Shown here piece after piece: positions 20,610 through 50,556 of a stretch of DNA of 50,862 bases; within the stretch, counting starts at the first letter, position 1; every line of letters starts with the position of its first letter. The position numbers and the translations under genes are program-made. Location: positions 1 to 50,862 of the IMG/VR virus record IMGVR_UViG_3300031566_000057; one strand, 5' to 3'. The stretch comes from a virus. Under the pieces are notes generated by a model that saw only the letters and a program-made list of their open reading frames with translations, was not told where the DNA came from and searched no databases.

Positions 20610-20814
20610 AGAACATGCTGGTGTGCGCTGGAGCGGAGGCGAAAGCCGTTGATGCGATGAAGGCGCGCGGTACTGGCGTCCTGCTACTGATAGTCGCGAC
20701 CGACAGGAGCGGCAAGCCGACGACAACTCGGCGTTCCACTGTGGCAGATTATGAGATCACGCGAGCCGAAGAAGCCCACGAGCGCCAGGGGCATAGTAGG
20801 CCACACCAGCACCT

Positions 20815-20888
20815 GCGGCGGTAGCTCAAGTGGCAGAGCGCGTCCCTTATAAGGGCGAGGTTTGCAGGTTCAACTCCTGCCCGCCGCA
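20815..20888 (+). tRNA. tRNA-Ile, anticodon UAU
   Basis: Cloverleaf: perfect 7-bp acceptor stem (20815-20821/20881-20887), D arm GCTC/GAGC, anticodon stem 20841-20845/20853-20857 with a 7-base loop 20846-20852 and anticodon TAT at 20848-20850, 6-base variable region, T arm GCAGG/CCTGC with loop TTCAACT. Discriminator A at 20888; CCA is not encoded. It would read the rare AUA codon without lysidine modification of a CAU anticodon. The region 20610-20814 upstream holds no convincing gene: an ORF at 20615-20824 runs into the tRNA and lacks a good start. Confidence 0.88.
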
Positions 20889-21052
20889 ATCGAAGCGCGG
20901 GACGTTCCCGTGCGAGTTTCAGAGTCTCACAGCATGAAAGGTCCGTGGCAGTTGTAAGCAAAACCTGAACGGATAGTTATTCCAAGGCCCCCTCCGCGAA
21001 GCGAACCATGAGGGGGTCCGCAGACAACCCCGAAAGGGCAAGGAGATAGACC
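20889..21052 (+). other. intergenic region with two hairpins downstream of the tRNA
   Basis: An 8-bp hairpin at 20895-20913 (GCGCGGGA/TCCCGTGC, loop CGT) lies just 3' of the tRNA and could mark processing or weak termination. A second one pairs CCCCCTC near 20989 with GAGGGGG near 21011. No T tract follows either. The last bases hold AAGGAG for the gene at 21053. Confidence 0.45.
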
Positions 21053-33739: not shown

Positions 33740-33943
33740 ATGAGCGGCCATGACCTCAAGAGCCTTTTCGGGCTTGAGTATGACCTTCGCGGGATAGCAT
33801 GGTACGCCTGCAAGCGCGCCTGTCCCTACGGAGACCCGCCAGGATTCGTTGCTGAGGAATGCAGCCTGGATTGCCCCGGCTTCGAGTCGCTGATGGCGTC
33901 ATGGGGGAAGGAACCGGATGTCCCATGCCAAGCTGCTCCTTGA
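33740..33943 (+). CDS. Cys-rich small protein, 67 aa
   Basis: CGGGAAGGATG leader upstream. Six Cys (YACKRACPYG, ECSLDCPGF). It overlaps the terminase large-subunit start by 26 bases. Function unknown. Confidence 0.55.
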   Translation: MSGHDLKSLFGLEYDLRGIAWYACKRACPYGDPPGFVAEECSLDCPGFESLMASWGKEPDVPCQAAP

Positions 33944-35684
33944 CTGCCTACCCAGGAACCCCGCCGACAACCTCGACTCCCGCGAGCGCATGTTACGTCT
34001 TCCCAGGAAGTGCAGGGAAGCCCAGCTTCGTGCTTGTGAAGAGGCTTCTGCTTACGGCTTCCTCTACTGGTTGAATGCCTTTGGCTGGACCTACGACCCC
34101 CGCAACAAGAAGACTGGGGGCAAGGTCATCCCCTTCTGCACTTGGGACATTCAAGATAGAGCAGGCACAGAACTCTGGAACGCGATAGACCAGGGGCATG
34201 ACATACTGCTCGACAAGTCAAGGGACATGGGGGCTTCGTGGTTAAGTGTTGCTGCATTGGTATGGTGGTGGCTGTTCGTACCCCAGACACCCCTACTGGT
34301 AGCATCGAGGAAGGAAGACTATGTTGACGCGGCTGGGAACCCGGACTCCTTGTTCTGGAAGATTGACTTTCTCGTGGACCATCTACCCCCCTGGATGGCC
34401 CCAAAGGGACGAACACGTCGTCACATGCACCTCGGACACCCTTCTGGAAGTGTCATCGACGGAGAATCCACTAACGTGGACCTGGGCCGAGGTGGGCGTC
34501 GGAAAGCCATACTTCTCGATGAGTTTGCAGCCGTAGAGAATGGCCGGGAAATCCTCTCTGCTACTGCCGACGCTACCCCCTGTAGAATCTTCAACTCCAC
34601 TCCCAAGGGTAGAGCAAATGCTTTCGCGGAGGTGCGGTTCTCCGGCAAGGTGCAGGTAGTCACACTCCACTGGAAGGACCATCCGCTCAAAGGTAAGGAC
34701 AAGCGCGAGGTTGAAGTCGATGGCAAGAAAACCTGGACATCCCCCTGGTACGAAGCAGAGTGCGCCAGAAGGACCAGCCGCAAGGAAATCGCCCAAGAGA
34801 TTGACATCGACTATCTTGCTTCCGGGGATGCCTTCTTCGATCTCGATGTTTTGCAGAGGATGCGCATTACGGGGGTGTTGCGAAAACCTGCACAAACGGG
34901 TGAGCTCCGCTTCAAGGTAAAGACCCAGGTAGAGGGAGTCTCATACAAGTTGACCGACCCCCAGTGGGTGCCAGATGGAGGGCGGCGTCGGCTAGCGCTG
35001 TGGTGCCCACTGGTGGACGGTCGGCCCTTGCAGAACAGGAACTACGTCGTCTTCTGCGATATAGCGCATGGGACGGGGGCCAGTAACTCCGCGATCAAGG
35101 TCTACGCGGTCAACCCAAGGGAAGAGGTGGGTTCGTTCGTCTGCCCCGATACCCCACCCCACGAGTTGGCTAGGTACGCCGTAGCGCTTTGTAAGTGGTT
35201 CGGGGGGATCGTACCAGTCCTGATGGGCTGGGAAGCCAACGGACCCGGTGGGATATTCGGACTTGAGGTGTACCGCCTCGGCTACCGCTTTGTGTTGGGG
35301 AACGTGAATCCGAGTATCCCCTGGAGCCCCCAAGACAACAAGATCGGCTGGAGCAGCACCCAGGAGAAGAAGGAGAGCCTATTAGGTGATCTCCGGGGCG
35401 CGTGGGCCAGGGATGAACTGGTCCTCCACGACGAAGCAGTTGTGACTGAGGCGGAGCAGTACATCCGCTACCCCTCTAACAGCATTGGCCCAGCACAGAT
35501 GGTGGAGGACACTTCAGGCGCAAGAGCGGCGCATGGGGATAGGGTCATTGCTACAGCGGGTATTCTCCTGTGCCTGAAACAACAGCCCACGGTGAAAGCG
35601 ACCCCGCCGAAGCCGGAGGAGGGCTCGTTTGCGGACAGGTGGCGGTGGAAGAAGCAGAAGGACAAGGCAACTAGGGACTGGTAA
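33918..35684 (+). CDS. terL: terminase large subunit
   Basis: A 588-residue packaging motor. ATPase domain: Walker A-type KSRDMGAS (100-107), Walker B AILLDEF (197-203), coupling motif STP (227-229). RNase H-like nuclease domain: Asp381 (FCDIAHGTG), Glu439 (GWEANGPG) and Asp541 (AHGDRV). The SRDxG-type Walker A is common in environmental podoviruses. It translocates DNA into the prohead through the portal and cuts concatemers. GGGAAGGA precedes ATG 33918. Confidence 0.92.
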   Translation: MSHAKLLLDCLPRNPADNLDSRERMLRLPRKCREAQLRACEEASAYGFLYWLNAFGWTYDPRNKKTGGKVIPFCTWDIQDRAGTELWNAIDQGHDILLDKSRDMGASWLSVAALVWWWLFVPQTPLLVASRKEDYVDAAGNPDSLFWKIDFLVDHLPPWMAPKGRTRRHMHLGHPSGSVIDGESTNVDLGRGGRRKAILLDEFAAVENGREILSATADATPCRIFNSTPKGRANAFAEVRFSGKVQVVTLHWKDHPLKGKDKREVEVDGKKTWTSPWYEAECARRTSRKEIAQEIDIDYLASGDAFFDLDVLQRMRITGVLRKPAQTGELRFKVKTQVEGVSYKLTDPQWVPDGGRRRLALWCPLVDGRPLQNRNYVVFCDIAHGTGASNSAIKVYAVNPREEVGSFVCPDTPPHELARYAVALCKWFGGIVPVLMGWEANGPGGIFGLEVYRLGYRFVLGNVNPSIPWSPQDNKIGWSSTQEKKESLLGDLRGAWARDELVLHDEAVVTEAEQYIRYPSNSIGPAQMVEDTSGARAAHGDRVIATAGILLCLKQQPTVKATPPKPEEGSFADRWRWKKQKDKATRDW

Positions 35685-36926: not shown

Positions 36927-38681
36927 ATGCCAGAAGTCATCGACAAGAACAGCGCCGTCAAGCGCCTTATGGAAGCTGTGCGCGTGGCGGACGCCCGCCT
37001 GAAGCCCTTCCGCGACAACCGCAGGACGTTTCTCAAGGAGTACGTCGGACCCTACTACACCAGGACTGGTGATGGTGCCGGCGCGAGTGCTACCGGACCC
37101 GAACCCATCAACATGCTCTTCTCCCTGGCCTCGGTGATCGTGCCCCACCTCGTCTCGCAGAATCCAAAGGCGATGGTCACTAGCAAGAACCCCCAACTCG
37201 GTCCCACTGCAAGGATGTTTGGGGAAGCCTGGAATGCCTTAGCCAAGGAAATCGACCTCTGGCGGGCACTGAGATCCTGCATCTTCGATGCCTTGTTTGG
37301 TATGGGGATTATGAAGGTGGGCTTGTCCCCAGGTGGGGAACTCATGGAGATGGAGGAGGGGTATCTCCACGACAACGGCCAAGTCTACGCCGATGCTGTT
37401 GACTTGGACGACTATGTAATAGATGCCGCCGCCAAGAGCCGGGAAGCAGCATCCTTCGAGGGGAACCGCTACCGCGTCCCCCTCGAATGGGCCTTGGAGT
37501 CCGAGCTATACGACCCCGACATTCTCCGCAAACTTCCAATCCACTATTCAGATAACACCAGTCGAGAACGTGGGGCCGCGGAACTCTCCCGTGGTGCGGC
37601 GAACTTACAGGAGGCGGCGGAGTACAGCGAACACGTCGAACTCCTGGACCTCTGGCGACCCCTGGAAGGTGATATAGTCACCATCCCCGGTAGTCCTGAT
37701 ATTGTGGTGCCCGACTTCATCGCCCAGTTTGAATACAATGGTCCTGAAAGAGGCCCCTTCGTTGACCTCAACTTCTTCCCGGTTCCGCATAACGTCATGG
37801 GGGTGTCCACAGTCGCCGAAGTCTATGACTTGCACGTGATGATTAACAAGCTCGCGCGCAAGGCCGGAAGGCAGGCGGACAGGCAGAAGGAACTGGTCTT
37901 GTTCGATGAGGTTGTTACCGAGGAGGCCGAAAGAGTCAGGGACGCCAGCGACGGGGAAATGGTGGGCGTGGGGAGTGTCTCTCGTTACGCCCAAGTGAGT
38001 TTTGGCGGAGCTAGTGAAGACACCTACAAGCAACTGGGTTTCCTGTTCGAGCAGTTCAGCCGTATCGCAGGGAACATCGACCTCATCGGGGGATTGCAAG
38101 CCGAAAGTAAGACACTAGGTCAGGACCAGATGCTCTACCAAGGGGCTTCTGGTCGCTTAGAGGACATGCGAACTCTCGCGCACACGTTTATGAAGTCCGT
38201 GGGCGAGCGGATGGCGTGGTATCTCTGGTACGACCCCCTGGCCGATCAGCCCATCACGGTCCAGGGCGCTGGTGGAGTACAAATCCCCGCCCAGTGGAAT
38301 GAGGACGAGAAGGAAGGAGAGTTCTTAGAACTCAACTTCGACATCGAACCCTACTCGATGCAGCGGGACGATCCTACCTCGAAGTTTGAGAGAGTGATGA
38401 CCTGGATCACCGGAGTTGTCCTTCCCACCGCGCAGATTGGGGCCATGCAGGGGGCGATACTCGACGTACCCAAGCTGGTGGAGATGACGGGGAAGATGCT
38501 GAACCTCCCAGAGGCGAGTGAGATTTACATGCCCGGCCCGCCGATGGGGATGGGGATGGATGCAGTTCAGCCTCCTGGGGGTAGCAACACCACGAATGTA
38601 AGCTCGGGGCGCGGAGGAGGGTCGCGCCCTGAGCCTTCTAATACGCAGTCTTCCAAACCTGCACAGGGGCCGGGTCAATGA
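36927..38681 (+). CDS. portal protein
   Basis: A 584-residue protein with the T7-like portal plan: an N-terminal LKPFRDNRRTFLKEYVGPYY segment, a long alpha/beta wing, the conserved ARKAGRQADRQKELVLFDE helix, FEQFSRIAGN, and a Gly/Pro/Ser-rich C-terminal tail. Twelve copies form the DNA entry vertex and bind terminase and adaptor. Order terminase-portal-(cassette)-scaffold-capsid supports this. GGAGGGG upstream of the ATG. Confidence 0.82.
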   Translation: MPEVIDKNSAVKRLMEAVRVADARLKPFRDNRRTFLKEYVGPYYTRTGDGAGASATGPEPINMLFSLASVIVPHLVSQNPKAMVTSKNPQLGPTARMFGEAWNALAKEIDLWRALRSCIFDALFGMGIMKVGLSPGGELMEMEEGYLHDNGQVYADAVDLDDYVIDAAAKSREAASFEGNRYRVPLEWALESELYDPDILRKLPIHYSDNTSRERGAAELSRGAANLQEAAEYSEHVELLDLWRPLEGDIVTIPGSPDIVVPDFIAQFEYNGPERGPFVDLNFFPVPHNVMGVSTVAEVYDLHVMINKLARKAGRQADRQKELVLFDEVVTEEAERVRDASDGEMVGVGSVSRYAQVSFGGASEDTYKQLGFLFEQFSRIAGNIDLIGGLQAESKTLGQDQMLYQGASGRLEDMRTLAHTFMKSVGERMAWYLWYDPLADQPITVQGAGGVQIPAQWNEDEKEGEFLELNFDIEPYSMQRDDPTSKFERVMTWITGVVLPTAQIGAMQGAILDVPKLVEMTGKMLNLPEASEIYMPGPPMGMGMDAVQPPGGSNTTNVSSGRGGGSRPEPSNTQSSKPAQGPGQ

Positions 38682-38860: not shown

Positions 38861-40192
38861 ATGAAAGTCACCCTCATTGCAGGGAAGTATTTCAATTCCT
38901 GGGAAGCCCTTGGACTGGGGTACATCGGGGCGTACCTGAAGCGGCACTGTGATGTGGAATTGAACTTCTTCCATCCGAACTTCGACTCGGACCATGCCAT
39001 TCTCGAAGGCACCGCGGGCACCGATATTTGCATGTTCTCCTGCACCTCTCCGGCAATAGATTATGCCTTGACGCTGGCCGGAGCGATCAAGTGCCGGGAT
39101 CCCAAAGTTCGCACTGTGTTCGGTGGGTATCACCCATCGGCCCTGCCGGGGGATGTTAAACAAGCCGGGTTTGTCGATTACGTGGTTGTCGGCGAGGGCG
39201 AAGTTCCGGCCGAGGCAATCGTTCGGGGTTATCCATATTGGCGTCTCGACGGCCGCCGCATGTCTTTCGACGAACTCTCCTGGCCCGACCGGGAACTGAT
39301 CCGCAACGAGCGCCACATCGCCGTCGCGGAGAAGGATACGGGGCTCCGCATCACCTCCTTCCAAAGTCGTAGAGGTTGTCCATACGGGTGTAAGTATTGC
39401 CTGGACGGCCAGAAGGTGATGTACAAGGGCAAACCCTGCGAGCGCGACATCAAGGACCTATTAACCGAGATCGACTCCGTAGCATACAAGTACCGACTCG
39501 ACCTCATCAAGTTCTGCGATCCTACGTGGAACACCAATCCGCAGTACGTGAAGGACTTCTGCAAGGAAAAGATCCGCTGGAAGCTGCACATCCCCTTCTT
39601 TGCGAACATCCACGCCCGTAATGGGGATCAGGAGATGTTCGACATGATGGCCGAGGCGAACTGTACAACCATCGGCTTGGGGGTGGAGACGGGTTCCGAG
39701 CGTATCTTGCAGCAGATGGGCAAGGGAACCACGAAGGATGACGTGCGCGGAACCGTCCGCATGGCGAAGAACTCTGGCATTGGCATTCGGGGCTACTTTC
39801 TGACAGGGATGCCGGATGATGACAACGAGTCTCTTCAGGAGACGATGGACTTCGCGGACGAGTTGGAACTGGACGAATACGGGTTCACCATCCTCTGTCC
39901 CTATCCGGGGACCGCCTTTTATGCGGAAGACCCGGAGAGGTTCAAGGACGTGAACTGGGAAGGGGCTGACGAGTACCGCAACGACTTCTGGCGCACTAAG
40001 TACCTCACGAACGCGGAATTAGTTGCATGGCAGGACAGGTTGATGGAGCGCTTCTGCAAGAAGCTCACGGGACGGAACAAGACAGTAGGGAAAGGGACAG
40101 GAAATGAAGGTAGTGGTGATTCCCCCGGAGCAACCGGGTGCACTCCCGACTCCGACGGAGAAGGAACTGGTAGCCCTTCTGCAAGGCGCTGA
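38861..40192 (+). CDS. B12-binding-type radical SAM enzyme
   Basis: A 443-residue protein. N-terminal Rossmann domain (1-130) of the cobalamin-binding type, with GGYHPSALP and VVVGEGE but without the His of the DxHxxG loop. The radical SAM core has Cys173/Cys177/Cys180 (RGCPYGCKYC) that bind a 4Fe-4S cluster, then GLGVETGSERIL and GYFLTGMPDD. Relatives do methylations or rearrangements of unreactive carbons in sugars, lipids and antibiotics. First gene of the cassette; GGAAGGA upstream. The C-terminal 30 residues overlap the next gene and are low-complexity. Substrate unknown. Confidence 0.85.
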   Translation: MKVTLIAGKYFNSWEALGLGYIGAYLKRHCDVELNFFHPNFDSDHAILEGTAGTDICMFSCTSPAIDYALTLAGAIKCRDPKVRTVFGGYHPSALPGDVKQAGFVDYVVVGEGEVPAEAIVRGYPYWRLDGRRMSFDELSWPDRELIRNERHIAVAEKDTGLRITSFQSRRGCPYGCKYCLDGQKVMYKGKPCERDIKDLLTEIDSVAYKYRLDLIKFCDPTWNTNPQYVKDFCKEKIRWKLHIPFFANIHARNGDQEMFDMMAEANCTTIGLGVETGSERILQQMGKGTTKDDVRGTVRMAKNSGIGIRGYFLTGMPDDDNESLQETMDFADELELDEYGFTILCPYPGTAFYAEDPERFKDVNWEGADEYRNDFWRTKYLTNAELVAWQDRLMERFCKKLTGRNKTVGKGTGNEGSGDSPGATGCTPDSDGEGTGSPSARR

Positions 40193-40961
40193 AGGCGTAG
40201 TCGCGGGGACGGAGCAGTATACCCGAACCGTACTCTCGCAGTGTCCGAAGCTTCGCGTCATCTCTCGCATGGGCATCGGGGTTGATAACATCTGTCTGGA
40301 ATACTGTAAGAACCGCGGCATTACAGTCATGGCGGTTCCCAATGGCCCGACGCAGGCCGTGGCAGAACACACCATCGGGCTCATGCTCGCCCTGCTCAGG
40401 CATACCGTGGACAACCACGCAAGTATGTTGGCGGGGGCGTGGGAGCCGAAGATCGGGAAGCTGCTCTGCAACCAGACTGTAGGCGTTATAGGGCTCGGGC
40501 GCATTGGCTGTACGGTGGTCCGACTTCTCCGGGCGTTCGGAGCGAAGGTCATCGGGAACGAGATTGAGGAGAATCAGTTCAATGCTTCTCTTGGGCTGGC
40601 ATGGACCTCACCCATCGACCTGCTTCTGATGTCGAACATCGTCTCCTTGCACGTGCCGCTCACGGAGTCCACCCGGCACATGATTGACGATGTGGAGTTG
40701 GCCTGGATGCGGCCCGGCACGCTCCTTGTGAACACGGCACGCGGGTATGTGGTTAATGAAGGGGCGGTGTATAGTGCCCTCCAATCCGGTCATCTCGGGG
40801 CTTACGCAGTAGACGTGTTTGCGCACGAGCCCTATGCGAGTTTTCTGTGCGGTTGTCCCAACGTGTTGATGACTCCCCACATCGCCGGATGCACGGAAGA
40901 GACCTGGGAAATGATGCGCGAGACGGCTATCCGTCATTGTAACGAGGCTCTCAATGGGTAA
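40104..40961 (+). CDS. D-isomer-specific 2-hydroxyacid dehydrogenase
   Basis: A 285-residue NAD-dependent enzyme: cofactor loop GVIGLGRIGCTV (Gly130-x-Gly132-xx-Gly135) and catalytic Arg213 (NTARG), Glu242 (AHEPY) and His259 (TPHIAG). Closest in pattern to phosphoglycerate-dehydrogenase-like proteins. It could interconvert a 2-keto and a 2-hydroxy acid, a chemistry compatible with nine-carbon keto-sugar acids or glyceryl units, but the substrate is unknown. It overlaps the radical SAM gene by 89 bases; GGGACAGG before the ATG. Confidence 0.85.
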   Translation: MKVVVIPPEQPGALPTPTEKELVALLQGAEGVVAGTEQYTRTVLSQCPKLRVISRMGIGVDNICLEYCKNRGITVMAVPNGPTQAVAEHTIGLMLALLRHTVDNHASMLAGAWEPKIGKLLCNQTVGVIGLGRIGCTVVRLLRAFGAKVIGNEIEENQFNASLGLAWTSPIDLLLMSNIVSLHVPLTESTRHMIDDVELAWMRPGTLLVNTARGYVVNEGAVYSALQSGHLGAYAVDVFAHEPYASFLCGCPNVLMTPHIAGCTEETWEMMRETAIRHCNEALNG

Positions 40962-41301
40962 AGGAAGCAAGCGACGGCCCGGCAACACCGAAGCATACCG
41001 ACGGGGCCACAAGAGAGCTTTTGGGACTGGGCCGCGAGACTCCACCAGTGGCACCTTTGTACTGCGGAATGGCACTCTCGTACCTGGCAGAGTAAACAAG
41101 TGCGACAGCAAGAATATCGAGAGCCTTGCTGCGGGGGTACAGGCGGAACAAGCCCCACAGGCCCGGAAGGACATTGCTGAGGCAAAGCTGTCGGGGGTGA
41201 AGGTACTACCTAACGGCAACTACGTCTTTGCCACCCGTCGGGACAAGCTGCGGTTTCTGAAACACGCCAAGATGCACGATAGGGACGAAGTGAGAGGATA
41301 G
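40954..41301 (+). CDS. small basic protein inside the cassette, 115 aa
   Basis: Begins MGKGSKRRPGNTEAYRRGHK, a very basic start seen in small phage proteins near portal genes. The rest has a FVLRNGTLVPG strand pair and ends in a basic helix. It may be an original head-region gene around which the enzyme genes inserted. ATG overlaps the previous gene by 8 bases. Function unknown. Confidence 0.6.
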   Translation: MGKGSKRRPGNTEAYRRGHKRAFGTGPRDSTSGTFVLRNGTLVPGRVNKCDSKNIESLAAGVQAEQAPQARKDIAEAKLSGVKVLPNGNYVFATRRDKLRFLKHAKMHDRDEVRG

Positions 41302-41304
41302 GGA

Positions 41305-43536
41305 ATGATTACGAATTGGGACGGGGAAAAGCAGTTCATGATACCCTTGCACCGGGCGAAGATGGGGTTGGATGTGTTCCTCTGTTGCCCAGGACCGTCA
41401 TTGGCGGATGTGGACACCAGCATCCTGCGCGGCCCAGGTCGGTATGTGGTGGCCCTGAACACGGCCTACCCCGCAGTGAAGCCTGATCTCTGGATCGGGA
41501 TGGACCTACCTTCATGCTATGACCGGGGCCTCTGGTGGGAACCCTTCCCGAAGATCGTCGGGAACAAGTTCGCCGATACCCCCTTCGGGGGGATGACGGT
41601 CAAGGAACTGCCAAACGTCTGGCTACTCTCTGGTACAGGTACTACGGCGGCCGGTAAGGAGTTCTTCAGCCGCAACGAACAGAACTCCTGGCACATCTGG
41701 GTCGGGAACGCCTACACCACAGCTCTTCATGTTTGCATCTGGCTGGGTGCGCGGACGATCAACCTGGTGGGGTGTGACTTCGGGGGCAAGACCGACTACC
41801 ACGACGGGCGGAAACTCTCCCCCGAACACCGGGAGCGGAACAGGATACTCTATGAAGCGCTTGTGCAGGACACCAGGCTTCTGGCGGAAGAGGGGAAGGC
41901 ACATGGGTTGGAACTTGTCTCCTGTACGCCAGATTCTCCGATCAACACCTTCCTGAACTATGTACCTGTGGAACGGGCCATCGCCGCCGCTGAGGGCGCG
42001 ATACCATTACCTGTTGACAACCGAATATGGGATTCTGAAAACGCCGAAATGCTCCAGTGGTCTACCCAGCATGAGGGAGACGGGGTTGTCGTCGTCGCGG
42101 ATCACCAGATGGAGTGGATGTTGCCCTGGTGGTATCAGAACCTTCGGGAGCACAACCCCGATGTTCAGATAGCCTTCTGCGACTGGGGCATGACCGAAGA
42201 GGGCAAGAAGTGGTGTGCGGAGCGGGGGCTTGTCTATCCCGTACTCAAACCCGCCAACCTGATGCACCGCAAACCCTTTGCGATTCTTCATGCACCCTTC
42301 TCCCGGATCATCTGTATGGATGCGGATTGCGAGATCAAAGCAGATATTACGCCCCTGTTCGAGAGGGGGAGCATGTGCGTCACCGAAGATCCCTTCAACC
42401 CGTGGTCCAAGGACTATCGGCCAGTCCCATATTCGACGGGGATGATCGCCTGTCATCATGGAGAACCCCTGATTGACGAATGGGCGCGGTATGTGCTCCA
42501 ACCGGAGTTAGCCAAGGGGGAGGTCTGGACCGACGATCAAGCGTTCAACTTGATGATCGCGGACATGGAAGAGGGGTTAAGCGACACTTCACGCCTCCTC
42601 GTAACCCTGGAACCCGAATGGCAGTGGCTCCGCCTGGCTTCGAGGTCGGGGGACTCAACAGCCAAGATCATCCACTGGACCGGCGCAGAGGGCAAGCAGA
42701 TCATCGACCGGAAGCGCAAGGAGGCATCTCATGGGGTGGAGCGAGATAGTGTTACTACTGGTGGGGAGCATGATAATCCTGTGGTGGAAACTGGTCCGCT
42801 CGTCTCCATCCTGATGCCCGCCTTCAACAGTTCGGAGTTCATCGAGAAGGCGATCCAATCCTGTATCGACCAGACCTATCAGAACTGGGAACTGATTGTC
42901 CTGGACGATGGTAGCAAGGATCAATTGCAAACCGCCAACATCATGCAGATGATGGCCAATAAGGACAAGCGAATCCGTCCCTTCTTCGAGCATCATCGGG
43001 GCAGACTGGAGGCGCACAATCGCTGCTGGCGACTTTGTAAGGGAGACATCATTGCCCGGCTGGACTCCGACGACTTGCAGGAACCGACACGACTGGCAAA
43101 GCAAGTGGCGCATTTGCAGAACTCCACCGATTCTATCGTCAGTTGTGAGAGTTATCACATTGATCGGGATGGGGCTTCTCTCGGGCGGCGTCCATGTTCT
43201 CCGTTTGGCAACTGTGTCGAACTTGCCACGACAAATATGACGGGATCGGCAACTTATTGGCATCCTCCGCAAGCAGGGAATATGATTACGCGCTCGTTGT
43301 ACGAAGCGATCGGGGGACTTCCGGGAGACAACAACTACTGTACCGAGGAGGGGTTTCTTTACGCTGCCATCTTATTGGGACACACTATCGGCCATGTCCC
43401 CGAAGCCTTATACGTCTACCGTCGGTATCCCGAGCAGATGTCCCAGAATGACCGTTGTGGCGCAGACGAAATAGCATGGAAACAACAGTCACGTCGGTTT
43501 ATAGAAGAAATGCGAACTCGGGGACTCACGGAATGA
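41305..43536 (+). CDS. three-module glycosyltransferase (DUF115/MAF-like + GT-A + GT2)
   Basis: A 743-residue fusion. Module 1 (about 20-230): VFLCCPGPSLADVD, IGMD, WVGNAYTTALHVCIWLGA and LVGCDFGG, like DUF115/MAF proteins linked to nonulosonate transfer on flagellin. Module 2 (about 255-470): a GT-A fold with metal motif DAD (339-341, ICMDADCEI), resembling sugar transferases that use nucleotide-sugars. Module 3 (about 498-743): a family-2 transferase with SILMPAFNSS, LDDGS and DSDD (587-590). The modules could add successive sugars. Whether this is a natural fusion or joined genes is not testable here; the frame is uninterrupted. Confidence 0.8.
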   Translation: MITNWDGEKQFMIPLHRAKMGLDVFLCCPGPSLADVDTSILRGPGRYVVALNTAYPAVKPDLWIGMDLPSCYDRGLWWEPFPKIVGNKFADTPFGGMTVKELPNVWLLSGTGTTAAGKEFFSRNEQNSWHIWVGNAYTTALHVCIWLGARTINLVGCDFGGKTDYHDGRKLSPEHRERNRILYEALVQDTRLLAEEGKAHGLELVSCTPDSPINTFLNYVPVERAIAAAEGAIPLPVDNRIWDSENAEMLQWSTQHEGDGVVVVADHQMEWMLPWWYQNLREHNPDVQIAFCDWGMTEEGKKWCAERGLVYPVLKPANLMHRKPFAILHAPFSRIICMDADCEIKADITPLFERGSMCVTEDPFNPWSKDYRPVPYSTGMIACHHGEPLIDEWARYVLQPELAKGEVWTDDQAFNLMIADMEEGLSDTSRLLVTLEPEWQWLRLASRSGDSTAKIIHWTGAEGKQIIDRKRKEASHGVERDSVTTGGEHDNPVVETGPLVSILMPAFNSSEFIEKAIQSCIDQTYQNWELIVLDDGSKDQLQTANIMQMMANKDKRIRPFFEHHRGRLEAHNRCWRLCKGDIIARLDSDDLQEPTRLAKQVAHLQNSTDSIVSCESYHIDRDGASLGRRPCSPFGNCVELATTNMTGSATYWHPPQAGNMITRSLYEAIGGLPGDNNYCTEEGFLYAAILLGHTIGHVPEALYVYRRYPEQMSQNDRCGADEIAWKQQSRRFIEEMRTRGLTE

Positions 43537-43607
43537 AGAGGGCGCGGTCTATAGCGCGGCGTCTGGAGACGGGGAACTGATATGTCGTTACTGCGAGTGG
43601 CCGAAAG

Positions 43608-44378
43608 ATGAATGCCGCAATCATAACCGCACGGGGTGGATCGTGCAGCCTGTCGAACAAAAACCTCTGGCCGATCCTGGGTGAGGCGATCCTGTCTCGG
43701 ATCATTCGGACTGCACAGGCGGCTGATCTTGTCTCTGCCGTCTATGTGGATACGGATGGGAAGGAGATAGCCAAGTGCGCATCCCGGTGGGGATCGCAGA
43801 TTCTTGACCGACCGGAATATCTCGCCGAGGGCACGGGCAATCACGGGGAAGTCATCCAGAAGGCGGTTCGCGTCGTAAATGCCCGGCAGCGCGGGCACTT
43901 GGAAAACGTCGTGATCCTCCTCGGTAATTCCTGCATGTACGGCCCGGAACTCATTGACGAAGCTCTTGCGACGTTGCAGGCCCGCCCCGACCTGACAGGG
44001 GTGATGTCGGTCTGGCAGGCGGCAGACGACCATCCTTTACGCGCAATGGAGATGGACCAAGAAGGCATACTTCTTCCCTGGCGTGATCCCCATCGGGACG
44101 TGCCCAATAACCGACAGGCATACTTGCCCGCCTTCTTCTACGATCAAGGAGTCTGGGCGTTTCGGAAGGAATGCGTTGAGAAGCACGACGGCCCGAGTCC
44201 CTGGTGGTGGATGGGAAACAAAGTAGGCGCGATTGTCCGCCCGTGGATTGGTGGCAGGGATATTCATAACTTGTTGGATGTTGCAGTGACGGAGTGGTGG
44301 GTTGGAAGAAACATACGCAGACTACGTTCGGGGCAAGCGCCTGGTGATCGTGGGTCCGGCCCCACAGATCCGGGGTAG
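43608..44378 (+). CDS. CMP-sugar synthetase-like nucleotidyltransferase (NeuA/KdsB type)
   Basis: A 256-residue protein. The start AAIITARGGS (3-12), SNKNLWPI (16-23) and VYVDTDGKEIAK match the nucleotide-binding opening of acylneuraminate and KDO cytidylyltransferases (usual AIIPARGGSKG.P.KN). The signature SKG part reads SCS here, so activity is not certain. It would make a CMP-activated keto-sugar acid for the transferases. Overlaps the next gene by 77 bases. The 70 bases before it carry a remnant-like frame with a Cys pair. Confidence 0.75.
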   Translation: MNAAIITARGGSCSLSNKNLWPILGEAILSRIIRTAQAADLVSAVYVDTDGKEIAKCASRWGSQILDRPEYLAEGTGNHGEVIQKAVRVVNARQRGHLENVVILLGNSCMYGPELIDEALATLQARPDLTGVMSVWQAADDHPLRAMEMDQEGILLPWRDPHRDVPNNRQAYLPAFFYDQGVWAFRKECVEKHDGPSPWWWMGNKVGAIVRPWIGGRDIHNLLDVAVTEWWVGRNIRRLRSGQAPGDRGSGPTDPG

Positions 44379-44967
44379 CTGTCAGGGGGACTACATCGAC
44401 TCGCACGATGTAGTCATTCGCATTGCCAACGCACTTCCGATCCCCGAACACCTTCGGTGTGATGTTGGGTCACGAACGGATGTCTTGTATACCAGCTTCT
44501 ACAGTGGACCGAATCCCCAGGAATGTAACCCAGTGGCCCCGGAGATGTGGAAGGCAAATGGGGTGCAATGGGTGTGCCTTTCGTCAAAGTTTGACGACCC
44601 CTATATCTGGCCGGGATTGAATAGGTTCGTCGCCTTGAATGCCGGCCGACTCCCATTGTACATGGTTCCTCCAGACGACTGCCGGGTGCTGGAGGCCGAA
44701 CTAGAGTGTAAGCCAAATACCGGGTTCGTCGCCATCTGGGATTCGCTGCGGTTTGATATTCAGAGCCTTTATGTGACGGGGATTTCCTTCTTTCGGGGTG
44801 GGTATCTGACAGAGTACCGCCCGATGAATGAAGAGGAAGCGATGGCATTCTTGGGGAAAGGGGAACACAAACAACCGCCGCAGATTGCTAAGATGCGCAA
44901 GTTAGTCCAGACGGATAGCAGGCTGACGGTGGATGCAACCCTTCAGGCGATCCTGGACGAAACATGA
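44302..44967 (+). CDS. sialyltransferase-like glycosyltransferase (GT29-like)
   Basis: A 221-residue protein: LVIVGPAPQIRGSCQGDYID (14-33, the sialylmotif-L-like loop), then DSHDVVIRIANALPI and DVGSRTDVLY (54-63), as in bacterial/phage relatives of family-29 sialyltransferases. It would transfer a CMP-activated nonulosonate made by the protein encoded upstream. Start ATG 44302 is inside the previous gene, typical of this tightly packed cassette. ATGA overlap downstream. Confidence 0.72.
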   Translation: MEETYADYVRGKRLVIVGPAPQIRGSCQGDYIDSHDVVIRIANALPIPEHLRCDVGSRTDVLYTSFYSGPNPQECNPVAPEMWKANGVQWVCLSSKFDDPYIWPGLNRFVALNAGRLPLYMVPPDDCRVLEAELECKPNTGFVAIWDSLRFDIQSLYVTGISFFRGGYLTEYRPMNEEEAMAFLGKGEHKQPPQIAKMRKLVQTDSRLTVDATLQAILDET

Positions 44968-45653
44968 TCCTCTTGCCTGACGACCATGCGGTGTACATCT
45001 CACATCCCAGATGTGGCAGTCACACGATGTTCGCCGTACTCAAGAAGTATTATGGGGGATTGTTCTTCACCGGCGACGGATATCACAGTCGCATCCTCCC
45101 GGAGTCGGTAGCGGGATGGTATGTCTTCTCCACCTGTCGTAACCCCTATTCTCTAGCTGTATCCATCTGGCGCGCGACTACCAGTACGGGAAGTGACTTC
45201 CAGCGAGAGAGATGGAAGTTCTCTGAGCACATGCAGGACGCGGACGCGGATACCTATCTGGATGGACGTGCGGCGGGGAGTACGGAGAGTCGGTCATTCG
45301 GGGCGTTTGCGAGACTACTGGCGAAGACGGATTTCACCGACCCCAACTATCTGCTGATGGACTGCCGGTTCTCTCCACTGGCGTATCCCCAGCACATCTG
45401 GTTCTCCTTGGTTGTGTATCAGAACGTCTTGTGCAGGGTAATGCGATTGGAGAGATTGGAAGCGGAGTTTCGACTACTTCCGTTCTGGCACGGACCCAAC
45501 TTTCTTCCCAGGGCGGCTAATAGCACCAGTGACGGCAAGGGACCCCCGTGGCAGAAGTTCTACGAACAGCCTGGGGTGGCAGCGGACATAGAGAAATGGG
45601 CGGGAACGGACTTTGAGATGTTTGGGTACAGGAAAGGAAACTATCGTGACTGA
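44964..45653 (+). CDS. sulfotransferase-like protein
   Basis: A 229-residue protein. The P-loop-like PAPS-binding motif is HPRCGSHTMFA (14-24). A 3'-phosphate-binding motif is TCRNPYSLAVSIW (57-69), and it ends EKWAGTDFEMFGYRKGNY, the familiar C-terminus of carbohydrate-type sulfotransferases. It would sulfate a hydroxyl of the glycan. ATGA overlap with the sialyltransferase-like gene. Confidence 0.72.
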   Translation: MILLPDDHAVYISHPRCGSHTMFAVLKKYYGGLFFTGDGYHSRILPESVAGWYVFSTCRNPYSLAVSIWRATTSTGSDFQRERWKFSEHMQDADADTYLDGRAAGSTESRSFGAFARLLAKTDFTDPNYLLMDCRFSPLAYPQHIWFSLVVYQNVLCRVMRLERLEAEFRLLPFWHGPNFLPRAANSTSDGKGPPWQKFYEQPGVAADIEKWAGTDFEMFGYRKGNYRD

Positions 45654-46329
45654 GGAATCCTGTGTAATGGCGGAGCGGGAGGTAGGAAAGTTCCGTCCCG
45701 GATGGCAACCGTTCTTCGACCGGCTTCTGGAGTTGCCGTTTCATTCGGTTGTAGACTTCGGATGTGGCTATGGTTTTCAGGTCCGCGATTTCGCCAAGGC
45801 CGGCAAGTCGGCAGAGGGTGTTGACAGGATCATTCATCCCTTTGCGAGGGCAGAGGCGGAGCAGAACGGCTACATACTCTGGGAGAAGTCCTGGGATGAA
45901 CTTGCCCCGGCAAGCTACGGGGCGGGCTGGTCGCACCACTGTCTTGAGCACTGCCGTGACCCCGTAGGTACACTTCATACATGGGGGCAAATCATCCAAC
46001 CTGGAGGCTTGCTATGTGTGATGGTTCCGATCCACCGCACTGATGCCCTGGCGGGACACATTGCCACGGGTTGGAACATCAGCCAACTGATGTACCTGCT
46101 GGCAGTCGCAGGATGGGATTGTCGGGACGGGGAGTTCCTGGTCGCCGATGAGACTATCGGTGGCATTGTCAGACGACCGGAACAAATGATTATGGCCGAC
46201 CCTTGGCAGGGGCTTGGTCCCATCCTTCCTCTGCTGCCCTTCACCTGCGATCCGGCGACAACCAGGGGGTTCGAGTACAAGACTACCAACGTCAACTGGC
46301 GTGGTAACAAATCCGGCACTACCCGATAG
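45646..46329 (+). CDS. SAM-dependent methyltransferase
   Basis: A 227-residue class I methyltransferase: motif I VVDFGCGYG (35-43), a conserved acidic/Asp residue after beta-2 (EGVDRI), LEHCRDPVGTL, and LCVMVPIHRTDA. GTG 45646 is preferred as start because AGGAAAGGA lies 8-10 bases upstream; ATG 45613 and 45667 are alternatives. Overlaps the sulfotransferase gene by 8 bases. Probable O- or N-methylation of the glycan or of a protein; substrate unknown. Confidence 0.75.
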   Translation: MTEESCVMAEREVGKFRPGWQPFFDRLLELPFHSVVDFGCGYGFQVRDFAKAGKSAEGVDRIIHPFARAEAEQNGYILWEKSWDELAPASYGAGWSHHCLEHCRDPVGTLHTWGQIIQPGGLLCVMVPIHRTDALAGHIATGWNISQLMYLLAVAGWDCRDGEFLVADETIGGIVRRPEQMIMADPWQGLGPILPLLPFTCDPATTRGFEYKTTNVNWRGNKSGTTR

Positions 46330-46385: not shown

Positions 46386-47342
46386 ATGGCTGAGGAAGCC
46401 ACAGAGACAGAGGAAGTCACACCAACAGAGGCAGTCACACCAACAGCAGCAGAAGAGGCGTTCTTCACAGAGAAGGAGCCTGTGGATGCGCTTGCTCCGC
46501 CCCAGGAGGATGCCGAGGACAAGGGTTCGGATGCACCTGAAGCTACCGAGCCCAAAGTCCCCGAAGCTACCGAATGGACCGCGAAGCAGGCCAGTGCGTT
46601 ACGGCGGTTCGGGTACGACCAGGACGAGTTGGAGAAGGCGTTCGGTCCCGACAAGGCGCAGACCTTCGCTGATAAGCTGGCGAAGACTCATGCCGATGTC
46701 GGGAGGCGCTATGCCCAGCTAGGTCGGGCCGAACGAAAACCCGAACCAACCGCAGAGGCGCCCCCGGAAACCGGGGCCGAAGAGGCGCTTGAGTTCAAGT
46801 ACGACCCGGAAGAGTCGGTGCTGAGTGCTACCGAAGGTCAGGCTGTCGAGAAGCTCTTTGCCACGGTGAAGGGTCTTCGGGAGAGCCTGGCCGGGGCCAC
46901 GAAGCACCTGGAGGTTCAACGAGCACAACAAAGGGAGCAGACAGCGGACACCTGGTTCGCGTCTCTCGATACGGACGTATACCCCATATTCGGTGAGGGG
47001 CCTGGCGGCAAGCTCGAAGAGGATTCCGAAGAGCTTGCGGCACGGCTGGAGATTCTGGACTATGCCCGGGAACTCACTGCCGGTCACCTCGCTGTACATG
47101 GGGAGGAAATGCCCATCGAGGATGCGCTAACCGACGCGCTGCTGCACTGTCATCCCGATGCAAGAGCCGCGGCGAGAAAGAAGACCACGGCGAAGAAAGT
47201 CAAGACCCGATCAGGCCAGCTATCCGCCCGCCCCGGAACACGTCAGGCGCAGGGTGCGCCCAAGGACGTGCATGAGGCGGCGCTGGACGCAATGGCCGAA
47301 CATCAAAAGACCAAGGGCCACGGCTTCTTCAAAGACGTGTGA
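46386..47342 (+). CDS. scaffolding protein
   Basis: A 318-residue acidic protein from ATG 46386 (AGGAG upstream). N-terminal 65 residues are Glu/Thr/Pro-rich and disordered (AEEATETEEVTPTEAVTPTA). A central helical region has coiled-coil character (EKLFATVKGLRESLAGATKH), and a basic C-terminus (RKKTTAKKVKTRSG) would contact the capsid protein. Position directly before the major capsid gene is decisive. The Thr/Pro-rich N-terminus is also a potential O-glycan acceptor. Confidence 0.75.
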   Translation: MAEEATETEEVTPTEAVTPTAAEEAFFTEKEPVDALAPPQEDAEDKGSDAPEATEPKVPEATEWTAKQASALRRFGYDQDELEKAFGPDKAQTFADKLAKTHADVGRRYAQLGRAERKPEPTAEAPPETGAEEALEFKYDPEESVLSATEGQAVEKLFATVKGLRESLAGATKHLEVQRAQQREQTADTWFASLDTDVYPIFGEGPGGKLEEDSEELAARLEILDYARELTAGHLAVHGEEMPIEDALTDALLHCHPDARAAARKKTTAKKVKTRSGQLSARPGTRQAQGAPKDVHEAALDAMAEHQKTKGHGFFKDV

Positions 47343-47367: not shown

Positions 47368-48492
47368 ATGGCAGACGGAATAGACATGAGACGCACTGCG
47401 TCCCTGTCGAACACAACCCTTATGGACATTCTGAAGAACACTCAGGATGTCGAACCGTATGATGGGAGTTTCGAGACACTCCAAAACCTGCACGATTACG
47501 AAATCTGCAACCGATGGATGGCCAAGGACAAGATCACCTTCGATGGTGGTACGTCCATCGTCCGTCATGTCCAGGTCACGGAAAGCGGGGCGGCCCAGTG
47601 GGTCGTGCCCTATCAGACCACCGAGCCCAGCGTTACGGACGTGCAGGCTCGGATCAGGGCGAACTGGTGCTATATCCAGACGGATTACTCCATCGCCCGC
47701 GAAGAGATGCTGGTCAACCGTTCGCGCCCGAAGCTCATCGACCTGATGAAGTCGCGCAGGCTTGCGGCGATGATGGACCTGGCGGAGCTTCTGGAGCTGT
47801 GGGTCTGGCGTTCTCCCACCAACTCATCCGATGCACTTCACCCGTTCGGCGTGCCGATGTACATCACGCCGATCATCACGGCACAGACGTATGGTCACGT
47901 CGGATGCAATCCCCTCTACAACGACACCTCTGCGGTGGCGGACTGTGCGGGGATTGACTCGTCCTTGTCGGCTTACTCTCGGTGGCGCAACTATGCCGAC
48001 CGCTGGAATCTGGCCGACAGTTTCGAGGGCGTGATTGAGGATGAGGATATCATCAAGATCACCCGCATGTTGCGTCGGCTGCACTTCAAGTCACCGACGT
48101 TCGTGACGGATATCGACAACGGTTCCTACAAGAACCTGCGTCTGTATACGGGCGAAGAGGTGATCGAGTCTCTGGAAGAGCGTGCCCGGAAGCAGAACGA
48201 TCAGTTGGGTTCCGATGTCGCCCGGTACGCCGGGGCTACGATCATCAAGAACCTGCCGGTCATCTGGATCGAACGGCTGGACTACGCGAACTCCTCGACG
48301 TATCCGTTCTACGCGCTCAACCACACCTACTTCAAGCCCTTCGTCATGGAAGGGAACTGGCTGAGAGAGAACGAGCCCATCAGAAGCAAGGGCCAGCACA
48401 ACGTGTTCACGACCTTCGTGGACGCGCAGATGAACATCATCTGCACCAACCGGCAGCGCGCGGGTGGGATCATCAGCGCTGTCGTCGCATAA
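47368..48492 (+). CDS. major capsid protein
   Basis: A 374-residue protein. Recognisable elements of HK97-fold capsid proteins of podoviruses: an N-terminal helix (NTTLMDILKNTQDVEPYDGS), long E-loop-like strands (GGTSIVRHVQVTESGAAQWV), a spine helix (AAMMDLAELLELWVW), and a beta P-domain-like C-terminus (VMEGNWLRENEPI). Gene order and size fit. GGAGGGG upstream. Confidence 0.8.
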   Translation: MADGIDMRRTASLSNTTLMDILKNTQDVEPYDGSFETLQNLHDYEICNRWMAKDKITFDGGTSIVRHVQVTESGAAQWVVPYQTTEPSVTDVQARIRANWCYIQTDYSIAREEMLVNRSRPKLIDLMKSRRLAAMMDLAELLELWVWRSPTNSSDALHPFGVPMYITPIITAQTYGHVGCNPLYNDTSAVADCAGIDSSLSAYSRWRNYADRWNLADSFEGVIEDEDIIKITRMLRRLHFKSPTFVTDIDNGSYKNLRLYTGEEVIESLEERARKQNDQLGSDVARYAGATIIKNLPVIWIERLDYANSSTYPFYALNHTYFKPFVMEGNWLRENEPIRSKGQHNVFTTFVDAQMNIICTNRQRAGGIISAVVA

Positions 48493-48549: not shown

Positions 48550-50556
48550 ATGACTCAAACCACGTACAAGAGTGAGAAGCTCTCTAAGAAGAGAGTCTGG
48601 TACACCGGCACAGATACCCTCTACGAAGGGTACGCTCTGTGCTACGACCGCGATATCGGCACGGTGACTGCCGTGGATATCGCGCGGGCTTACTCTGTTC
48701 TGAAGCCCGCGACGGCGTATCTAAACTACTTCGCCGGTGTTGTGGCTCCCGAGAGCGACAACAAGAAAGGCCCGTGCTGGGTCAACATCATCGAGCCGGA
48801 CGGTAGTGGTGGAAGGATCTGCAAGGGTTACTGCTACGTCAACGCCACCATTCTCACGACTCGGGTTGCAGTGACCGATGGGCAGTATTACCTCACTTCC
48901 ACAAGTTCGTCCAACGTGACGGTTGGCCGGGCGATGCAAACCCTGAACACGGGGACCACGGCGGCCCTGACGATGATCTCGCTGGAGGGGGTTAGCGCCA
49001 GTGCGACGGTTGATGCAGCCGCGCACGTCACCAACCTGACGAACTCCACTGGTGGCACGAGTGAGGCGGCAGAGACGCTGGCTGATGTCTTGTCTGCCCA
49101 GACGGCCCCGGACCTTACGGGCACGACTTCGGGTGCTGCTACCACTGTCACGTTCTCGGCCACGTCTCCCACCCTGACTGGTGTTACCACGGGAGGCGGA
49201 GTGGCCATCGTAGGCTCCGACACAGGGCCGACACTGACGGGTACGACCACGGGGGCGGCGGCGTCTGTTACGTTCTCCGCCACGGCTCCTACCCTCACCG
49301 GAGTCACCACCGGCGGCGGGGTCGCTATCGCAGGTTCCGATACTGGTCCTACTCTGACCGGCACGACCACGGGAGGTGTGGCGACTGTTACATTCTCCGC
49401 CACATCCCCGGCCTTGAGTGGTACGACCAGCGGCGGCGCAACTACGGTCACATTCAGCCAGACAGCTCCAACTCTCACGGGTGGAACCACTGGTGGGGGA
49501 GTGGCCCTAGTCGCAAGCGATACCGGCCCGACCCTTACAGGTACGACCACCAGTGCTGCGGCCACCGTTACCTTCTCGGCAACCTCACCCACCCTTTCTG
49601 GTACGACCAGTGGCGGCGCAACAACGGTCACGTTCTCGGCGACTGCGCCCACGCTGACCGGAGGTACGACTGGTGGTACTGTGGGCGTTGCATTCACCGC
49701 AACGGCACCGACACTGACGGGGGGTTCGGCTGGTGGGACCGTGGCTCTTATCGGCACTACGGCGCTGTATGGTGATGTCGCGCGTGCCTTCAACGCGACC
49801 GCCCTGAACACGGCCGACATTGCCAGTTTGTTTGTTCTGGACCAGCGGGTTGGTGATGCCACCGCCAAGAACACGGCCGACATCGCCAGCCTCTTTGTGC
49901 TGGACCAGAGAATTGGTGCTGCGGCAATGGCGAACCAGGCCGACATCGCCTCTCTGTTCGTTCTCGACCAGAGAATCGGCGAGGGCGTCAACCATGTCCG
50001 ATCCGACATGACCAACGCGGTTGCGGACATTAAGCGGTGTGCGGATGCAACGGCAAAGAACGCCGCGGATGTTGCCGCACTGTATGTTCTCGACCAGCGC
50101 GTTGGTGCTGCGGCCATGACAAACAAGGCCGACATTGCCTCTCTCTTTGTACTCGATCAGCGCATTGGTGCTGGGGTTGCTGCCCTCAAGACAGACATGA
50201 CGAGTGCCGTCGCTGACATCAAACGCACGGCGGATGCTGTCGTGAAGAACTCGGCGGACATTGCAAGTCTGTTCGTGCTCGATCAGCGCATTGGTGCTGG
50301 CGTTGCTGCTCACACCGTAGACATCACATCTGCCGTGGCGGACATCAAACGGACGGCGGATGCGGTGGTCAAGACCAATGCTGATGTCGCCGCACTGTTC
50401 GTGCTCGTCCAGCGATTGGGTCACGCGATTCTCCACCAGAAGGCCGATGTTGGGGGCATCATCAGCACCACCAACAACAACCTGACGGACCTCACGGAGA
50501 AGATCGACGACATTATCACCGCGCTGGAGAACGCCAACCTGATGGCGACTGCGTAA
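48550..50556 (+). CDS. repeat-rich head fibre/decoration protein, 668 aa
   Basis: GGAGGG upstream. Residues 1-150 form a domain shared with the next gene (TYKSEKLSKKRVWYTGTDTL, LNYFAG, GPCWVNII). Residues 185-404 are eleven exact 20-residue Thr/Gly-rich repeats (TAPTLTGGTTGGGVALVASD type). Residues about 420-624 hold seven repeats of a helical unit (ADIASLFVLDQRIG), then a coiled-coil tail. The plan is a virion-anchored, trimeric fibre with a beta-rich shaft. The Thr density makes it a candidate acceptor for the glycan cassette; this is inference. No enzymatic domain. Confidence 0.8.
   Translation: MTQTTYKSEKLSKKRVWYTGTDTLYEGYALCYDRDIGTVTAVDIARAYSVLKPATAYLNYFAGVVAPESDNKKGPCWVNIIEPDGSGGRICKGYCYVNATILTTRVAVTDGQYYLTSTSSSNVTVGRAMQTLNTGTTAALTMISLEGVSASATVDAAAHVTNLTNSTGGTSEAAETLADVLSAQTAPDLTGTTSGAATTVTFSATSPTLTGVTTGGGVAIVGSDTGPTLTGTTTGAAASVTFSATAPTLTGVTTGGGVAIAGSDTGPTLTGTTTGGVATVTFSATSPALSGTTSGGATTVTFSQTAPTLTGGTTGGGVALVASDTGPTLTGTTTSAAATVTFSATSPTLSGTTSGGATTVTFSATAPTLTGGTTGGTVGVAFTATAPTLTGGSAGGTVALIGTTALYGDVARAFNATALNTADIASLFVLDQRVGDATAKNTADIASLFVLDQRIGAAAMANQADIASLFVLDQRIGEGVNHVRSDMTNAVADIKRCADATAKNAADVAALYVLDQRVGAAAMTNKADIASLFVLDQRIGAGVAALKTDMTSAVADIKRTADAVVKNSADIASLFVLDQRIGAGVAAHTVDITSAVADIKRTADAVVKTNADVAALFVLVQRLGHAILHQKADVGGIISTTNNNLTDLTEKIDDIITALENANLMATA
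49102..49761 (+). repeat. eleven tandem 60-bp coding repeats (20 aa each)
   Basis: Eleven in-register units of 60 bases with consensus T-A/S/G-P-T-L-T-G-x-T-T-G-G-..., alternating between VTFSA-ended and VAIxGSD-ended versions. Sequence divergence between units varies, which fits repeated unequal recombination. The paralogue at 50599-50862/1-535 has only one unit. Confidence 0.95.
49807..50421 (+). repeat. coding repeats of the ADIASLFVLDQRIG helix
   Basis: Seven copies of a 14-16-residue motif (N/K-x-ADIA-S/A-LFVLDQR-I/V-G) spaced by variable linkers of 6 to about 35 residues. Longer linkers contain a second repeat, SAVADIKRTADAVVK. Probably a helical coiled-coil shaft. Confidence 0.9.

Follow-up and report, generated by a model that had tools for sequence, protein, structure and literature searches.

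The window considered here is the whole of a 50.9-kb virus record (50,862 nucleotides; IMG/VR record IMGVR_UViG_3300031566_000057). Positions 38861-46329, between the portal and scaffold genes, hold a block of putative glycan synthesis and decoration genes. The original prediction described it as a one-strand cassette of seven enzymes with overlapping ends. All seven open reading frames (ORFs) are present, uninterrupted and on the + strand, and the portal-to-scaffold position is correct. However, the interval contains eight ORFs. A 115-residue protein, p115 (40954-41301, +), lies in the middle; phmmer, BLASTP and alignment identify it as a conserved core phage gene and not a glycan enzyme. The overlaps are partly an artefact of TTG starts: for the methyltransferase at the right end ATG 45667 is preferred as start over TTG 45613, and a 71-nucleotide gap separates the ORF ending at 43536 from that starting at 43608.

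The left border is an SU10-like portal protein (36927-38681, +; PF23899, 34.8 bits, above cut-off). On the right is a scaffold-like protein (46386-47342, +; ATG start 46386 preferred over TTG 46356), recognised by synteny and homology with relatives L009, L010, L012 and L014, and then the major capsid protein, MCP (47368-48492, +; NF033394, 99 bits, cut-off 80). Relatives were found through the large terminase-like protein of the window (33918-35684), which has no Pfam match; about 400 IMG/VR contigs belong to the family it defines. When the MCP, GT29 and cytidylyltransferase proteins were each used alone to scan viral contigs, nothing came back; only the terminase query opened the family. Its members are mostly contig fragments, and absence of a gene outside the aligned intervals is no evidence. 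The portal is homologous in nearly all of them. Homologues of p115 are found by phmmer in L002 (BLASTP 2e-9), L007, L009, L010, L011 and L012, and that of L014 is assigned by position and alignment. The site is empty in L009, L012 and L014, where the order is portal, p115, scaffold, MCP with nothing else of size; it is occupied in the window, L007, L010 and L011. As judged from these comparisons, p115 is the native occupant of the portal-scaffold interval. It is found at the same place in relatives both with and without glycan genes, and the window therefore has two inserts. Insert 1, before p115, consists of a radical S-adenosylmethionine (SAM) enzyme and a dehydrogenase. Insert 2, after p115, consists of a MAF/GT-A/GT2 glycosyltransferase fusion, a cytidylyltransferase, a GT29-like protein, a "sulfotransferase" and the methyltransferase.

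Similar genes are arranged differently in the relatives. Between terminase and portal, L010 encodes a canonical KdsB (PF02348, 145 bits) together with a homologue of the sulfotransferase-like protein. Its p115 is followed by a likely methyltransferase (sub-threshold Methyltransf_24 match) and by a 743-residue ORF that joins MAF and GT-A domains to a GT29 domain sharing 46% identity with the stand-alone GT29 of the window. KdsB, GT29, sulfotransferase-like family, methyltransferase and MAF+GT-A all lie inside 8 kb of L010. In L011, MAF+GT-A follows p115; in L007, it forms a fusion with a methyltransferase. The window-type MAF+GT-A+GT2 fusion is present in L087, but downstream of the MCP and decoration protein, and after it come an ORF of no assigned class that resembles a glycosyltransferase by eye, a radical SAM gene and a methyltransferase. 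MAF or GT-A modules are also found in more distant phages, including a 256-kb phage with its own GT29 gene, and several lie among structural genes; by inspection, the MAF-like homologue of L091 is among structural or tail genes. The exact gene set of the window was seen in none of the relatives found. This recurrence indicates that the genes co-occur and travel as modules. The block had been proposed to travel as a single unit; instead it is split by a core gene, and its modules are reassorted, fused and relocated in relatives. The significant matches to cytidine monophosphate (CMP)-sugar-type and GT29-type families do recur together in L010, so neither outcome named beforehand as counting against the prediction, a lack of such matches or genes that only ever occur singly, was observed. 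The pattern suggests interchangeable kits for decoration of the virus particle. Two further observations concern these fusions. In L007 another, unmatched protein (L007:6253-7224) occupies the expected MCP place directly after the glycosyltransferase-methyltransferase fusion, and L007 showed no homologue of the scaffold, a case of head module mosaicism. In a 135-kb phage, MAF, several GT-A-like repeats and a methyltransferase are joined in one protein of 1428 residues (L089:9962-14248).

Occupied and empty phages are intermixed in the terminase tree, with modest node support, and the window and L087 pair in the glycosyltransferase tree (0.68) but not in the terminase tree. Both results fit a history of gain, loss and exchange. 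As a sign of recent acquisition, base composition was set aside: GC and GC3 of the block are 0.55-0.59 versus 0.58-0.61, so it is not clearly foreign.

The largest protein of the block is a 743-residue fusion (41305-43536, +) of a MAF/DUF115-like Rossmann domain (residues ~1-240), a GT-A/GT8-like domain (~250-480) and a GT2 domain (~495-740; PF00535, 3.2e-27). The three-domain call made originally holds for GT2, which is above the Pfam cut-off. The MAF domain is below the PF01973 cut-off everywhere (E 0.26 in the window and 3e-4 to 0.02 in homologues; best score 21 against 34.6 bits), though several independent homologues have sub-threshold matches that span almost the whole profile, and PHROG 4603, "alpha-2,3-sialyltransferase", matches the domain (7.9e-5). 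In an AlphaFold model, domains 1 and 2 have a mean pLDDT of ~90 and the GT2 domain is low. Foldseek relates domain 2 to glycogenin-like GT8 proteins and the poorly modelled domain 3 to the GT2 polymerase K4CP; a PDB profile search with MAF+GT-A returned nothing usable. Homologues of the fusion in L007, L010, L011 and L087 match at 40-44%. Among predicted viral proteins it matches best one called MptE-like, from an uncultured Caudovirales phage; the architecture is therefore not unique. A scan of genome contigs with the fusion gave only one match, to the GT-A of a Verrucomicrobia metagenome-assembled genome (28%).

The next gene (43608-44378, +) encodes a cytidylyltransferase whose catalytic residues are altered; it belongs to the NeuA/PseF/KdsB superfamily. 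The NeuA/KdsB-like assignment is borne out by PF02348 (CTP_transf_3; 46.3 bits, cut-off 22.6), and the best PDB match is VcNeuA (9e-16); the score against the PseF equivalog TIGR03584 is 67 bits, below the cut-off of 205.7. Bacterial relatives (27-32% identity) sit in neuB/neuC/legB/legC surface loci. In a residue comparison, one of the two Mg-binding Asp residues is lost (DIH in the window, DID otherwise), the equivalent of Neisseria Asp211 being His; the P-loop Lys is Cys, and LQPTSP has become LLGNSC. The homologues compared keep both Lys and Asp. The Arg-Gln, KN and Asp209 positions are retained, Arg-Gln within NRQAYLP at a one-residue alignment offset. In the Neisseria enzyme, D211A carries a 15,000-fold cost, Arg165 binds the sugar carboxylate and Gln166 supports quaternary structure (PMC2901514). 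With one catalytic Mg-binding Asp lost, CMP-sugar synthesis is not assured, and the protein should be called NeuA-like rather than a CMP-sialate synthetase. Given the altered residues and the canonical KdsB of L010, the donor may be a nonulosonate, Kdo or something different, and the sialic-acid-like product deduced from the fold is unproven. NeuB is encoded in none of the window, L010 and L087, in agreement with the earlier remark that no enzyme for synthesis of the nine-carbon sugar was seen.

The GT29 (sialyltransferase)-like protein (44302-44967, +) was also correctly recognised. It matches PF00777 (32.0 bits, cut-off 23), and it has sialylmotif L, motif S (PNTG) and a conserved His at the VS-like position, with the VS Glu replaced by Gln. 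The GT29 domain of L010 matches PF00777 independently (28 bits), and a two-sequence profile matches ST3Gal1 in the PDB (8.7e-4). The 256-kb jumbo phage has a GT29-like protein too (L113:1330-2007), in which motif S and His-x4-Glu are present. The sulfotransferase-like protein (44964-45653, +), 39% conserved in L010, is known by motif only (YISHPRCGSHTM; CRNPYSLAVSIW): a putative 5'-PSB, HPRCGSHTM, and 3'-PB, CRNPYSLAVSIW, were spotted by eye and are conserved in L010. There were no matches in Pfam, NCBIfam, PHROG or PDB, and the structure model failed (pLDDT 32). The sulfotransferase call is putative, as is the "sulfated" glycan derived from these two stretches. The last gene encodes a class I SAM methyltransferase (45667-46329, +; PF08241, 2.6e-7; PF13489, 2.9e-7; Methyltransf_11/23). 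"Sulfated, methylated sialic acid" as the product is unproven. Searches by tblastn with the GT29, sulfotransferase-like and portal proteins against named phages gave no match.

Insert 1 begins with a B12-binding radical SAM enzyme (38861-40192, +; PF04055, 3.5e-19; PF02310, 1.9e-13) with the CxxxCxxC motif CPYGCKYC. Its best NCBIfam matches, HpnJ/BchE, are far under the equivalog cut-offs, and it matches PDB 9ccb and 6fd2. It is followed by a D-2-hydroxyacid dehydrogenase (40104-40961, +; PF02826, 5.7e-49), nearest to phosphoglycerate dehydrogenase (PGDH; PDB match, 3e-45), with both domains above the Pfam cut-off and the NAD motif and R/E/H residues kept. These two assignments, together with GT2 and the methyltransferase, agree with the original calls in having Pfam matches above cut-off. 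Both enzymes may belong to the glycan pathway, as candidates. The rival explanation, which has a substantial chance of being right though somewhat below even, is that the two inserts are unrelated: the radical SAM enzyme and PGDH-like dehydrogenase would have some other function, in metabolism or host takeover, and the glycosylation module would be confined to the part after p115. Separation by p115 speaks for it, as does the fact that no relative found has such a pair beside a glycosyltransferase fusion at this site, and L015, a related phage, carries its two consecutive B12-type radical SAM genes elsewhere, immediately 5' of the terminase (L015:1-2024). Against it are the shared strand and tight spacing in the window, the radical SAM gene (of unrelated type) close to the fusion in L087, and a cytidylyltransferase homologue in Azospirillum that adjoins a radical SAM gene and is near a methyltransferase. 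Since this rival covers only these two genes, it is compatible with the main explanation given below, and the confidences expressed here do not sum to one.

Two structural proteins are candidate acceptors for a glycan. One is a 668-residue head-decoration-like protein (48550-50556, +), the N-terminus of which is homologous to the 218-237-residue post-MCP proteins of L010, L012 and L087. It has Ser/Thr-rich 40-residue tandem repeats and reaches 46% Ser/Thr over 100 residues, the maximum in the window. The protein has grown from ~220 to 668 residues by these repeats and by 21/42-residue "ADIASLFVLDQRIGA" repeats, a feature of the window only among the relatives examined. The other is a collagen-like tail fibre (6332-7147, +; PHROG tail fibre matches) with Thr-rich GXT repeats, evident in the translation. 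That either is an acceptor is a guess. Elsewhere in the window are a tRNA-Ile (anticodon TAT, 20814-20889) and a 1730-residue ORF that matches a DarB-like antirestriction PHROG (9745-14937).

The main explanation, which we hold tentatively and put just short of an even chance, is that a late virion protein receives, before assembly or in its course, a short glycan that modular, soluble, cytoplasmic phage enzymes build and cap. It builds on the profile identities of the genes, their insertion at a site that is empty in relatives, the co-occurrence and reshuffling of the modules and the location in the structural operon. Also in its favour are the intermixing of occupied and empty phages in the terminase tree, the structural or tail surroundings of MAF-like homologues elsewhere, the Ser/Thr-rich repeats beside the MCP and the Che8 and chlorovirus precedents described below. 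The known MAF system is cytoplasmic and uses Ser/Thr acceptors. The MAF/DUF115-like + GT-A (+ GT2) fusion would start and lengthen a chain on Ser/Thr-rich structural proteins, for example the collagen-like fibre or the repeat protein that follows the MCP. A CMP donor, either host-derived or activated by the cytidylyltransferase of the phage, would supply the acidic keto-sugar that the GT29-like enzyme places at the chain end. The product would be capped by the methyltransferase and perhaps by the sulfotransferase-like protein as well; the radical SAM enzyme and dehydrogenase may alter the sugar or be unrelated passengers. Cytoplasmic action, acceptor, donor and order of steps are predictions of the model. 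Of the glycan synthesis and decoration set first proposed, the late structural location and the family matches stand; the single unit, the sulfation and the sialic acid identity are overstated or unsupported. A more elaborate picture is a mucin-like capsid, in which the Ser/Thr-repeat decoration protein is O-glycosylated in the cytoplasm by MAF/GT-A/GT2, capped by GT29 with a nonulosonate or Kdo, methylated and perhaps sulfated, with the kit swapped among related phages to vary the surface; we regard this as improbable. Several points weigh against virion glycosylation. The MAF domain is sub-threshold, the GT2 domain modelled poorly, the sulfotransferase without profile support and the cytidylyltransferase without catalytic residues that its homologues keep. 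In L010, the nearest cassette-bearing relative, the decoration protein is short and includes one similar repeat unit, and Ser/Thr or collagen repeats occur also in phages without such genes. Lipid-linked host glycans are also possible substrates of soluble glycosyltransferases.

Host glycans are the target in a competing explanation, in which the enzymes modify a surface glycan (lipopolysaccharide inner core, O-antigen or capsule) during infection and mask receptors against superinfection, as in seroconverting phages. KdsB, GT2 and nonulosonate enzymes are members of surface-polysaccharide pathways, the bacterial relatives of the cytidylyltransferase lie in surface loci, and prophage epaA/epaB change capsular pseudaminic acid (PMC12053666). 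However, no flippase-type gene, polymerase or membrane-anchored transferase was seen in the block, the cassette proteins are all free of strongly hydrophobic stretches (19-residue Kyte-Doolittle maximum <=1.35), and the genes lie late, in the head operon, with modules adjoining structural genes in other phages too. Soluble proteins, the lack of a flippase and the head-operon site together point towards a virion protein glycosylated in the cytoplasm rather than towards O-antigen conversion, and modification of the host surface is considered unlikely. Still less probable is a mosaic acquisition in partial decay, with several genes, including the altered cytidylyltransferase and the shortened GT29, inactive as sugar activators or transferases. 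The changes at the metal site, P-loop Lys and LQPTSP, and the cost of D211A in Neisseria, fit such decay; on the other side, every ORF is stop-free, the Arg-Gln, KN and Asp209 positions are kept, and the GT29 and sulfotransferase-like families are 39-46% conserved between the window and L010, motifs included. Phage DNA or a small molecule, instead of protein, is a very improbable target. Phage glycosyltransferases are known for DNA-base modification, but no base-hypermodification genes were seen among the ORFs scanned, and DNA modification as the leading role was rejected on position, the block being in the head operon and away from the replication genes, which lie at 21-26 kb.

Close relatives in which the site is empty or occupied, with three C-terminal partners (GT2, GT29 and methyltransferase) on one MAF+GT-A core, amount to a natural experiment on the roles of phage glycans in receptor binding, escape from antibodies or protists and particle stability. 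The genes are also a source of soluble CMP-sugar-type glycosyltransferases for glycoengineering tests in E. coli.

To our knowledge, phage virion glycosylation has been demonstrated in only a few phages. The kind of system is already known; what is new is a swappable modular set inside the head operon. The window resembles phage virion glycosylation systems in linking glycosyltransferases to structural genes. Virion/capsid glycosylation is established in Che8-type mycobacteriophages, as reported through a citing paper (Freeman et al. 2023, cited in PMC11256854). As there, the glycosyltransferases are phage-encoded and the targets structural proteins, predicted as such in the window; the window set is larger and mixed (CMP-sugar-type, GT29-like, MAF-like fusion, methyltransferase, radical SAM, dehydrogenase) and lies in the head operon. 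Chlorovirus A064R is a fusion of two glycosyltransferases and a methyltransferase that acts on capsid glycans (PMC7019647). It is similar in having glycosyltransferase domains fused to each other and a methyltransferase, and in being soluble, virus-encoded and outside host glycosylation routes, but it belongs to a eukaryotic algal virus, to a rhamnose/xylose N-glycan and to other families, and in the window the glycan is a prediction. The epaA/epaB genes of Acinetobacter prophage modify host nonulosonate (PMC12053666); there too phage genes would act on a host-made nonulosonic acid, but epaA/epaB act on the host capsule with different enzymes (epimerisation). GtrABC O-antigen conversion has a membrane flippase and a membrane transferase in its operon; the block differs in having no flippase-type gene and no protein with a strongly hydrophobic segment, which is the pattern of cytoplasmic protein glycosylation. 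At the level of single enzymes, the cytidylyltransferase shares fold-level family and bacterial relatives with NeuA/PseF and KdsB, the latter canonical in L010, but one Mg-binding Asp and the P-loop Lys are missing from it, and it falls short of the PseF equivalog cut-off. The N-terminal domain of the fusion has weak, near-full-length matches to MAF/DUF115 flagellin glycosyltransferases (PF01973) in several homologues; unlike these, it scores below the curated cut-off, is fused to GT-A and to GT2, GT29 or a methyltransferase, and is phage-borne. A sialyltransferase has been annotated in phage TayeBlu (PMC12772287). The GT29-like protein has the motifs L and S and the VS-like His of GT29 sialyltransferases (PF00777), but at 221 residues it is without a membrane anchor and has Gln for the VS Glu.

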